Source: Bradyrhizobium diazoefficiens (GTDB lineage: Bacteria; Pseudomonadota; Alphaproteobacteria; Rhizobiales; Xanthobacteraceae). From it: a stretch of DNA of 64,000 nucleotides. The position numbers and the translations under genes were made by a program. The notes beneath the pieces were generated by a model. The model ran no database searches. It was not told the DNA's origin and was given only the letters and a program-made list of their open reading frames with translations. Below are positions 1 through 64,000 of the stretch, piece after piece (within the stretch, counting starts at the first letter, position 1; each line of letters opens with the position of its first letter). The stretch covers positions 1-64,000 of the forward strand of contig NZ_JAFCJJ010000017.1 in assembly GCF_018131015.1 (NCBI RefSeq), read 5' to 3'.

Positions 1-74
1 ATAGGAATCACACAAAGTGCCGATTCGGGAATCCCCCGGCAACTTCATGCCAACCAGATATGTGCATGCCCTAG
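1..74. mobile_element. Right end of a MITE-like element, cut by the window edge
   Basis: Bases 57-74 match 15 of 18 positions of the right terminal repeat of the complete element at 63422-63579. They are followed directly by the same ten bases, GGCGAAGGCC, that flank that element. The left end lies outside the window, so neither the second terminal repeat nor the duplication can be confirmed here. The interior differs from the complete copy, so this would be a diverged relative. No coding region is visible in it. Confidence 0.5.
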
Positions 75-203
75 GGCGAAGGCCGGGACCCATAGCCAGG
101 GGAGACGTTTGACGAAGATTAGCAGTTAACCCATTCGTCGGTACCGCGACCGTCGATGACGGAGAGATTCCCCGGTATGGATCCCGGCCTTCGCCGGGAC
201 GAC
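75..203. repeat. Palindromic intergenic repeat, copy A (family of 17175-17297)
   Basis: This is an incomplete copy of a repeat of about 125 bp. It begins inside the left hairpin, at the junction with the element above, and ends in the right hairpin arm with CCTTCGCCGGGACGAC. The interior shares 'gtttgacgaag' with the copy between nadA and nadB. It lies downstream of the dihydroorotase gene, and nothing coding is visible between base 1 and that gene's stop at 237. Confidence 0.8.
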
Positions 204-17174: not shown

Positions 17175-17297
17175 GTCGTCCCGGCGAAGGCCGGGACCTA
17201 TAACCACAGGAAGATGTTTGACGAAGAACGACGTTGAACAGCTTTCGCACAACAATTTCCGCCGCGGCGTATGGGTCCCGGCCTTCGCCGGGACGAC
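17175..17297. repeat. Palindromic intergenic repeat, copy B (intact), inside the nad operon
   Basis: The 123-bp element has perfect 23-base terminal inverted repeats: GTCGTCCCGGCGAAGGCCGG at the left (continuing GAC), mirrored at the right. Each end is itself a hairpin. It lies in the 171-bp gap between nadA and nadB and contains no gene. It is the uninterrupted reference for copies A and C, which carry an inserted element within the left hairpin. Confidence 0.88.
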
Positions 17298-62456: not shown

Positions 62457-63380
62457 ATGAATTTGACTTCGCTCGACCTCAATCTGCTGACCGCGCTCGA
62501 CGCGCTGCTGCGCGAGGCCAATGTCAGCCGCGCAGGCTTGCGGATCGGCCTGTCGCAGCCGGCCGCGAGCCACGCGCTGCAGCGGCTGCGCGACATCTTC
62601 GGCGATCCGCTGCTGGTGCGCACGGGCGCACGGATGGAGCTGACGCCGCGGGCGCAGGCCCTGCGCGCGCCGCTGGCGCAGGCGCTCGACCAGGTCCGCG
62701 CCTTGTTCGTGCCCGAGGGCTTCGACGCGGCGCGCAGCGAGCGGCAATTCCGCCTGATGATGCCTGATCTCGCGGTCGAGCTGCTGATGCCGCCGCTGAT
62801 GGAGAAGGTGACGCGCCTTGCGCCCGGCGTCCGCATCGACGTCGTGCCGTGGCGGGGACCTGCGATCTTCCACGCCGAGTTCGCCCGCACCATCGACCTC
62901 GTCATCTCGATCGGCAACGCCTTCAAGGGCTTTCACCGCCAATTGCTCTACACCGACAGCGACGCGCTGGCGGTGCGACGCGGCCATCCGGCGGGCGCGA
63001 AGCTGAAGCGGCGCGAGGCTTTTCTGGCCGCACGCCATGTCGGGGTGATCATCCGCGGCCAGAGCGAAGATCTGATTGACACCTGGCTGCGGGCCAAGGG
63101 CATCGAGCGGCACATTTCGCTGGTCGTCTCAGGTTATCTGGAGGCGCTGCACGTCGCCGCCCGCACCGACCTCGTCGCCTTCGTGCCGCGCCGACTGATC
63201 GCGGCGCTGTCTCGGCAACTCGGCCTCGTCACGGTGCCGCCACCACTCGATCCCGGCATCGACGAGCAGTTCATGTTCCATCCGACCCGGGCGCAGATGG
63301 ACCCCGGCTCGATCTGGCTGAGGCGGCTGATGCTCGAGACGGGCCGGGAGCTGGAGAAGAAGGAGCGACGTGTTGGATAG
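62457..63380 (+). CDS. LysR family transcriptional regulator
   Basis: A 307-residue LysR regulator. The winged-helix start MNLTSLDLNLLTALDALLRE and recognition helix SQPAASHALQRLRDIFGDPLLVRTG are classic, followed by the type 2 periplasmic-like effector domain. The target is probably the divergent NTF2-like gene, across 91 bp with an AT-rich dyad GATAT-g-ATATC at about 62436-62446. The effector is unknown. The start is the ATG at 62457; an ATG six codons upstream sits too close to the purine run. Confidence 0.92.
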   Translation: MNLTSLDLNLLTALDALLREANVSRAGLRIGLSQPAASHALQRLRDIFGDPLLVRTGARMELTPRAQALRAPLAQALDQVRALFVPEGFDAARSERQFRLMMPDLAVELLMPPLMEKVTRLAPGVRIDVVPWRGPAIFHAEFARTIDLVISIGNAFKGFHRQLLYTDSDALAVRRGHPAGAKLKRREAFLAARHVGVIIRGQSEDLIDTWLRAKGIERHISLVVSGYLEALHVAARTDLVAFVPRRLIAALSRQLGLVTVPPPLDPGIDEQFMFHPTRAQMDPGSIWLRRLMLETGRELEKKERRVG

Positions 63381-63403
63381 AACGCACTAACCGCAAACAC
63401 GGT

Positions 63404-63710
63404 GTCGTCCCGGCGAAGGCCCTAGTCTATGCACACATCTCGAAAAGCGACTCAAATACAGAGGCTTAGATACCCCCCTGTTTTTGAGGGATTGCCGCGT
63501 AGGTTGCCGCGCGAGTGTTGATAGGACTCATGTTTTTCGTGCTGTCGACAACCGACGAAACGATGTGTGCATACACTAGGGCGAAGGCCGGGACCCATAG
63601 CCACAGGACGCGGTTTGGCGAAGACTGGTCGTTCGGTACTTCTATCGATCGCAATCGATAGATTCCGCGGCATGGGTCCCGGGTCTGCGCTTACGCTTGC
63701 CCGGGACGAC
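63404..63710. repeat. Palindromic intergenic repeat, copy C, interrupted
   Basis: Left end GTCGTCCCGGCGAAGGCC stops at 63421, where the MITE-like element starts. It resumes at 63580 with GGCGAAGGCCGGGACCCATA and continues to CCCGGGACGAC at 63710. The interior shares 'ccacaggacgcggtttggcgaag' with copy B. Removing 63422-63589 restores a standard element. Confidence 0.85.
63422..63579. mobile_element. 158-bp MITE-like element with 10-bp target duplication
   Basis: The ends CTAGTCTATGCACACATC and, as reverse complement, CTAGTGTATGCACACATC match at 17 of 18 bases. The flanks carry a direct duplication GGCGAAGGCC (63412-63421 and 63580-63589). The element sits inside copy C of a palindromic repeat, and the empty site is known from copy B. 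It has no transposase; only a 21-codon frame on the minus strand (63466-63531) is present. It must be moved by an enzyme encoded elsewhere, of a type that makes ten-base duplications. Confidence 0.88.
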
Positions 63711-63720
63711 GGCCGAGAGC

Positions 63721-63800
63721 TCACGCCTTCTGCGCGTCCATCACCTTGCGCACGGCGGGGCGGTCGGACAGGCGCTTGAAATGGTCGGCGGACCTCATGG
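63721..63800 (-). pseudogene. Remnant of a glutathione S-transferase C terminus
   Basis: The minus-strand frame ends MRSADHFKRLSDRPAVRKVM then DAQKA and stop. This is like the last residues of many GSTs (a 'F-x-R-L-x-x-RPAVRKVM' pattern). Upstream the frame loses any GST look. It probably is the tail of a decayed gene beside the repeat. Confidence 0.5.
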
Positions 63801-63918
63801 GAAAACCGGAAATTAGCGGCTGTGGCCGGTCAGGTCCATAGCAGGAGGCGTCCTCTTCGCAGTTGCCCAAGACCGCCCGCCTGTGCCAAGACGCCCGCAA
63901 TCGGAGGGGTTTTTTGTC

Positions 63919-64000
63919 ATGACGGTCCTTATCGCCGGCGGCGGCATCGGCGGGCTGACGCTGGCGCTCAGCCTGCACGGAATCGGCGTTCCCGTAAAAG
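63919..64000 (+). CDS. Start of a FAD-dependent monooxygenase (partial)
   Basis: The first 27 residues read MTVLIAGGGIGGLTLALSLH then GIGVPVK. The GxGxxG Rossmann motif of FAD-dependent hydroxylases is clear. The gene runs off the right edge. GGAGGGG lies upstream of the ATG. Phenol- or salicylate-hydroxylase-like function is typical of the family, and no more can be said from this piece. Confidence 0.85.
   Translation, partial: MTVLIAGGGIGGLTLALSLHGIGVPVK

Follow-up and report, generated by a model that had tools for sequence, protein, structure and literature searches.

A Tn5-like insertion sequence and a 158-bp MITE lie at the centre of REP hairpins in Bradyrhizobium diazoefficiens

Two mobile elements in REP hairpins of one contig

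The Bradyrhizobium diazoefficiens DNA studied here, referred to as the window, comprises bases 1-64,000 of contig C9 in a draft genome of 69 contigs and 7.1 Mb (code G000), base 1 being the start of the contig. Close to either edge of the window a mobile element splits a repetitive extragenic palindromic (REP) hairpin of the CGTC type, which we call REP1. On the left this is the end of an insertion sequence (IS) related to the IS4 family, and on the right a 158-bp miniature inverted-repeat transposable element (MITE). In both cases the sequence interrupted is GGCGAAGGCC, the middle of REP1. The features concerned are as follows:

1-74, minus strand: outer 74 bp of an IS4-related, Tn5/IS50-like IS (74/74 bases identical to the end of contig C29, locus L007; 73/74 to the end of C41, L010)
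57-74, plus strand: terminal inverted repeat of the IS, GATATGTGCATGCCCTAG
75-84, unstranded: target duplication GGCGAAGGCC, the hairpin centre, in single copy; the same as at the end of C34, which bears the opposite IS end
75-98, plus strand: right half of the IS-split REP1
182-202, minus strand: mate REP1 hairpin in inverted orientation
17180-17292, unstranded: uninterrupted inverted REP1 pair, giving empty sites for comparison
63406-63421, plus strand: left half of the second split REP1 (CGTCCC plus GGCGAAGGCC)
63412-63421, unstranded: target duplication GGCGAAGGCC, left copy
63422-63579, plus strand: 158-bp MITE with inverted repeats matching at 17/18 bp
63580-63589, unstranded: target duplication GGCGAAGGCC, right copy
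63580-63603, plus strand: right half of the MITE-split REP1

The transposase gene of the IS would run leftwards off the contig, 1-74 being the end upstream of the gene, and the corresponding contig end L007 leads into a transposase reading frame. The other IS end is absent from the window because position 1 is the start of C9; it is the IS at this edge that broke the assembly there. A pure assembly artefact was considered and rejected, since the repeated DNA occurs at nine contig ends and only the missing left part is owed to the assembly. IS insertion accounts for the breaks of this assembly at REPs.

An earlier note on this DNA had described the left edge as a second right end of the element at 63422, in the same place and orientation of the repeat, and had taken the two for diverged members of one element. 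The junction is as described: bases 57-74 match 63562-63579 at 15/18 positions and adjoin GGCGAAGGCCGGGACCCATAGCCA, and beyond the two ends the flanks coincide at 24/26 bases. The proposed kinship had to be abandoned, as only 11/56 bases inside the tip match, while the 74 bases match another IS copy throughout. The two are an autonomous IS and a MITE, with similar tips and unrelated cores.

Insertion sites across the genome

With at most one mismatch, the tip pattern GATNTGTGCATNNNCTAG had 11 matches in the 7.1-Mb genome, compared with none for the reversed control. These were the two tips of the MITE and nine contig ends carrying the IS tip (C4, C7, C9, C11, C29, C34, C39, C41 and C68). In the window alone, at three mismatches, there were 5 matches vs. 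2.25 expected, a number reached in 5/100 shuffles, and a window-only count of this pattern would prove little. All ten sites (10/10) adjoin a 10-bp palindrome, GGC(GAAG, GAAA or GCAG)GCC, or loop variants on the other strand, which in every case lies in the middle of the repeat CGTCCCGGC-GAAG-GCCGGGACCCA. The genome contains 93 exact REP1 hairpins, or 120 at up to one mismatch (12 for the reversed control), many of them paired in inverted orientation at a spacing of about 95 bp. Were insertion random, the probability of falling at one exact axis would be about 1.7e-5 for each event.

The nine contig ends fall into two end types of the IS, four of one and five of the other, so that the genome has at least five insertions. 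Going by duplication and outer arms, the contig ends would pair as C9/C34 (GGCGAAGGCC), C7/C39 (GGCGAAAGCC) and C4 with either C29 or C41 (GGCGCAGGCC), the contigs themselves being unjoined; three ends had no partner. Matching 10-bp duplications flank the MITE (63412-63421 and 63580-63589) and, for the IS, are seen in the putative pairs C9/C34 and C7/C39.

A second kind of IS end, with an IS50-like tip (GATGTGTGAATGCCATAG), was present at five ends (C6:60, C22:60, C25:60, C40:23919 and C44:20848). All five lay beside sequence of another type, REP2, that at C25 being a variant, while the first kind lay beside REP1 at 9/9 ends (p = 0.0005, counting ends, the nine representing at least five insertions). 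To judge from its tip, the second IS is probably also IS4-related.

Two further observations concern the same genome. A 43%-identical IS4-type transposase is encoded at G000:C28:74466-75713 (L223), where no CTA-type ends were found. In addition, the assembly is interrupted, within the CCCAT tail of REP1 or next to it, by a repeat that has inverted ends around GGGGGCCGTCCAC; this is the case on contigs C10, C20, C45 and C54 and on C1, C27, C31 and C53 (L257-L264). The repeat is probably a further, unrelated IS that also uses REPs, which we take to be IS3-like from the form of its ends.

The target palindrome follows the transposase clade

Relatives were sought by transposase in 265 genomes of the same genus, Bradyrhizobium, so that elements were found independently of their ends. 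A match at E <= 1e-40 was obtained in 43/265 genomes. We chose 100 loci, a subset of the listed places (at most six scored per genome) that was supplemented by some copies from genomes G010 and G005, and sought both ends as inverted repeats starting with CTA. The 97/100 loci counted below leave aside L159 (at a contig end), L223 (no CTA ends) and L200, whose boundaries were mispicked by the script and whose duplication, read by eye, is CCCATAGGG. REP1 and REP2 were assigned by lenient patterns, REP2 taking precedence.

In a tree of 31 representatives, 21 formed one clade with 100/100 support. Elements in the groups of this clade were inserted in REP1 in 66/69 cases, compared with 0/28 outside it. 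The 28 lay in REP2 (21; ctct-CCCCTTGTGGG-agag and kin), in REP3 (2; cgccc-GGWCAAGCC-gggcg) or in other sites (5). Over both sets there were seven such other sites, four of them REP2-like by eye (L201, L216, L220 and L221) and three not (L167, L186 and L226). Mapped on the tree, the target label changed 4 times, with a minimum of 2 and a shuffled mean of 10.1; none of 200 shuffles was as low, a result to which near-copies contribute. The suspicion, voiced in the earlier note, that the element prefers this repeat is supported by these data: random placement, which would have refuted it, was not seen, 10/10 sites in the genome and 66/69 clade members in related genomes lying at the hairpin axis.

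Two elements with different targets also coexist in genome G081, where one IS had 2/2 copies in REP1 and another had four copies, two in REP2 by pattern and two (L200 and L201) at REP2-like sites by eye. Outside the 100 loci, a REP1 insertion in G025 (L016) has two differing target copies, and inspection by eye places two Sinorhizobium relatives at palindromes as well (L125, whose duplication has one mismatch, and L126). Of 17 named loci with a relative of the IS, 16 were from Bradyrhizobium and one from a Rhodobiaceae metagenome-assembled genome. A genus-wide search for the end pattern at up to two mismatches served for leads only, as its matches, in at least 141/265 genomes, included many that were plainly unrelated (e.g. 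the recurring GGTTTGTGCATGCGCTAGCAG); it also found tips beside non-REP sequence, for example in G101, G104:C5 and G003:C29.

Most duplications are centred on the dyad

Perfect target duplications flanked 76/97 elements, 60 of them 10 bp long, nine 11 bp and seven 9 bp. Complementarity peaked at the centre of the duplication, with means of 6.95, 6.22 and 6.71 of 8 pairs for the 10-, 11- and 9-bp classes, respectively, vs. 4.0 of 8 or less at shifts of 0.5-3 bases. At least 6/8 pairs were present about the centre in 64/76 sites and at least 7/8 in 59/76, the latter level being reached at 0.13% of window positions. Duplication length varied for one element within one genome (9 bp at L203 vs. 11 bp at L204; 9 bp at L212 vs. 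10 bp at L213), so that the sites of cutting tend to be placed according to the arms rather than at a fixed distance.

At some loci, the two target copies are reverse complements of each other (L128, L139, L140, L151, L191, L209-L211 and L220 for the IS; L241, nearly, and L255 for the MITE). In five REP1 cases of the IS and two of the MITE, the outer arms fit a single REP in which one loop is flipped. Such a flipped loop was seen in five REP1 insertions vs. 0/150 uninterrupted REP1 copies (p = 0.0024; 150 of 305 matches in two genomes, read by eye), and in 0/52 in fetched loci. Recombination between copies may explain these duplications in full or in part; some flipped halves could stem from REPs whose arms are symmetric (L165, L192). 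At L155 (G019), an IS at REP1 lacks the right duplication altogether: CTAG leads straight into gggaccca, as would result if gap filling had passed over the hairpin.

An IS4-related transposase with a frame change

Full IS copies in three genomes of the genus measured 1486, 1488 and 1490 bp and survey copies ranged from 1420 to 1508 bp; from the close relatives, the autonomous IS would be about 1.49 kb long. DNA identity to a 524-bp query was 78-90% in G005, G009, G010, G019 and G025. The transposase of one member scored 312.6 bits against NCBIfam IS4_3 (cut-off 160), and sequence matches in the PDB were confined to Tn5 transposase (E = 2.9e-27) and its inhibitor form. A 112-aa fragment had no match in Pfam, where the long frame from two relatives did match. 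The YREK motif was present in 97/98 copies (it was not found in L202), and the spacing D-95-D-137-E of one member lies inside the published D(60-110)D(100-150)E.

A conserved FGDxRL-type N-terminal motif lies in a different frame from the main one in 93/98 copies, the others being L215-L218, where it was not found, and L202, which was not read. In 81 copies the main frame opens at a run of A3G6 (48), A4G5 (25) or A7 (8), and in eight further inspected copies an A3G6, A4G5 or A5G6 run follows the motif. The frame change was seen in L007 at about 1640-1690 and in L127-L226. We rejected a single open frame in some clades, the motif being out of frame there too. The arrangement suggests programmed frameshifting or transcript slippage; an internal ATG is also present in the gene. 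Because the single open reading frame without frameshift given as an IS4 family hallmark (PMC2266710) is not found here, we refer to the IS as IS4-related.

In Tn5, the choice of target or strand transfer is altered by substitutions at K164, R189, R210, K212 and H213, and a designed preferred target is GCTCAGAGC (PMC2229646), which by our own reading is itself palindromic. The residues aligned with K212/H213 (by HMMER for one member and by motif for the rest) were MH in 69/69 copies of the REP1 clade. In the REP2 groups they were CR (17), GQ (4) or CQ (4), making up the 25/25 readable copies; both REP3 copies had NH, and L226 had NW.

The MITE shares the target sites of the IS

The element at 63422-63579 belongs to a family of 157-169 bp, with at least 61 matches in at least 22/265 genomes at E <= 0.001. 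The search used a sequence-only model made from 14 copies, with up to 11 candidates scored per genome under stricter filters and weakest E values of about 5e-4 to 7e-4. Thirty loci were examined; leaving aside L236 (no ends found) and L239 (contig end), perfect duplications were present in 23/28 loci with both flanks, and by eye nearly all lie at REP-type palindromes of three classes, L246 being a weak REP1. In its short length, inverted repeats and target duplication the element has the structure expected of a MITE.

MITE tips vary widely: CTAGTSTATGCACACATC and CTATTGCATGCACACATC, among others, were found in REP1, CTAAGGCRTGCACACATC in REP2 and CTACTCGATTCACACATC in REP3. Against the 100 IS loci, MITEs matched over only 19-29 bp at the tips, among the 40 matches listed. 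MITEs may be mobilised in trans. Target classes clustered on a tree of MITE cores, in which 5/21 inner branches were well supported, though not cleanly (6 changes, minimum 2, shuffled mean 10.0, 0/200 as low).

The possibility that the MITE holds a structured RNA was rejected. Rfam gave no match at E <= 1 for 63000-64000 and, beyond the inverted repeats, RNAalifold predicted only two short helices of 2 and 4 pairs, in which some pairs had changes on both sides and some were broken. Just upstream of the MITE-split REP is an ordinary LysR-type regulator gene (62457-63380; Pfam HTH_1 and LysR_substrate).

A transposase that would read the palindrome

The reading that we consider highly probable is that the IS and the small non-autonomous element each entered the centre of REP1, the transposase reading the palindrome and cutting symmetrically about its dyad. 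Entry would presumably have been by cut-and-paste transposition. A dimeric DDE transposase would most likely recognise the two arms of the palindrome (CCC...GGG and the inner arms) and make a staggered cut symmetric about the dyad; the central 9-11 bp would then be duplicated and the element would land at the axis. The comparison of sites between genomes establishes the position of insertion, the duplication, its centring on the dyad in most sites, the palindrome specific to each clade and the sharing of sites with the MITE. Recognition of the arms by the transposase is what we infer from this pattern, and landing between genes may bring a benefit.

Several observations weigh against this reading. 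No full IS copy was found within one contig of this genome, 3/69 elements of the REP1 clade lie elsewhere (L167 and L186, plus L172 in a REP2-like site), and 21/97 elements have no perfect duplication. Among the 76 perfect sites, 12 have 5/8 pairs or fewer about the centre, although a few of these (e.g. L201 and L221) are, by eye, palindromes whose axis is off the duplication centre. The reverse-complement duplications of nine IS copies are not predicted by a simple model. The MH/CR pattern, a lead only to residues that may help set the target class, is confounded with phylogeny. A strict dependence of the MITE tip on target class had to be rejected, as L237 (in REP2) and L238 (in REP3) have the same tip and almost the same core.

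A different account is recognition of DNA shape, in which what the transposase captures would be a bent hairpin or an extruded cruciform, and the sequence of the arms would count for less. The dyad is indeed the feature common to the clades, duplication length follows arm spacing within one element in one genome (L203/L204 and L212/L213), and some duplications are reverse complements. However, the clades tell palindromes of differing sequence apart, even within one genome, so that sequence matters at least partly, and we regard DNA shape as a possible but rather unlikely main determinant.

We give very little credence to survivorship, i.e. random insertion followed by loss of all cases except those in dispensable intergenic REPs. 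Di Nocera 2013 (PMC3733652) describes REPs as extragenic, and insertions in them should be harmless, but harmlessness alone would not single out one base of such a repeat. Insertion is precise to the base, and two IS end types lie beside two palindromes in the same genome with no overlap (9/9 and 5/5 ends).

Least credible of all is that the half-REPs belong to the mobile element as long composite ends: although REP halves flank each of the 10 genome sites, loop and stem letters differ between sites yet match on both sides in 76/97 copies, elements occur in both orientations, the two outer arms differ, two genomes have as many as 113 and 192 uninterrupted REPs, the length of the duplication varies for one element, and copies without REP halves were observed (L167 and L186).

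Beyond insertion by a transposase that reads the REP1 palindrome, we advance a wider proposal only tentatively: that one Tn5-like transposase family may have divided into clades that each read a palindrome of their own, with a few residues setting the target, a stagger that fits the arms, expression through a conserved frameshift, and MITEs of shared core that ride on the resident transposase. On this proposal REPs would serve as common landing pads, on which elements spread without damage to genes. The interest of the findings lies in a set of transposases, related to one another and to the Tn5 transposase of solved structure, that have sharply different natural targets, in two cases within the same genome. 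Together with the candidate residue pair, at a position tied to target choice in Tn5, this makes target selection testable.

Comparison with known systems

Insertion of ISs at REP axes is known from ISRm22. What appears new is that a Tn5-like family uses palindromes specific to its clades, with a stagger that varies with the arms and a frame change that is conserved, and that MITEs share its sites. In the open-licence literature, seen mostly as titles and the starts of abstracts, we found no report of a Tn5-like IS or MITE in Bradyrhizobium REPs and, in that on REP-targeting ISs, no account of how a palindrome is chosen.

Tobes and Pareja 2006 (PMC1525189) reported six ISs whose association with REPs is complete, among them ISRm22 of S. 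meliloti, an IS4-family element at the axis of palindromy. All 10/10 copies of ISRm22 in their table were in REPs, and imperfect direct repeats in 3/9 were ascribed to recombination (PMC1525189). De Palmenaer 2008 (PMC2266710) placed ISRm22 in subgroup IS4Sa, with ends CA, and noted its target conservation. Repeats of 6 bp are reported for ISRm22. The present IS resembles ISRm22 as an IS4-type element in REPs at the axis of palindromy. Identity with it was rejected on subgroup and on the ends, CA in IS4Sa vs. CTA here. The CTA ends are of IS50 form and go with 9-11 bp duplications, several target classes and MITEs. REP association holds for 10/10 sites in this genome and, at 66/69 in the clade, is not quite 100% in related genomes.

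IS231A of B. thuringiensis, which belongs to another subgroup of the IS4 family and has ends CAT, has the target consensus GGGN5CCC, and the REP2 target CCCCTTGTGGG (CCC N5 GGG) resembles it. Table 1 of PMC2266710 lists duplications of 10-12 bp for the IS231 subgroup, and a title in the reference list of that paper (Hallet 1994) links the insertion specificity of IS231A with DNA bending.

Transposase homology, DDE residues, the Y(2)R(3)E(6)K signature and a duplication of about one helix turn are traits shared with the IS4 family. The end consensus of IS50, CW------Y---CA-A--W- (PMC2266710), was matched at 7/7 positions by 109 of 194 ends, at 6/7 by 81 and at 5/7 by 4, and the lengths, with L200 set aside, fall within the 1350-1550 bp of that subgroup. 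Since 69/76 duplications here measure 10 or 11 bp and so exceed the 8-9 bp given for IS50, we call the IS IS50-like and not IS50. It differs from IS50/Tn5 also in its strong REP targeting and in the N-terminal frame change.

CGTC REPs, with Bradyrhizobium among their hosts, apparently have no dedicated transposase, according to Di Nocera 2013 (PMC3733652). REP1, C-GTCCCTGC-GAAC-GCAGGGAC-CCA, has the features given in the text of that paper for CGTC-1 REPs, namely the CGTC tag, an 8-bp stem, a 4-nt loop, a CCA tail and inverted dimers; here it is the target and not the mobile unit. The 158-bp element, with its inverted repeats and target duplication, is like the bacterial MITEs NEMIS, ERIC and RUP (PMC3733652), from which it differs in its insertion at the REP axis and in tips that vary, partly with target class, around a shared core.
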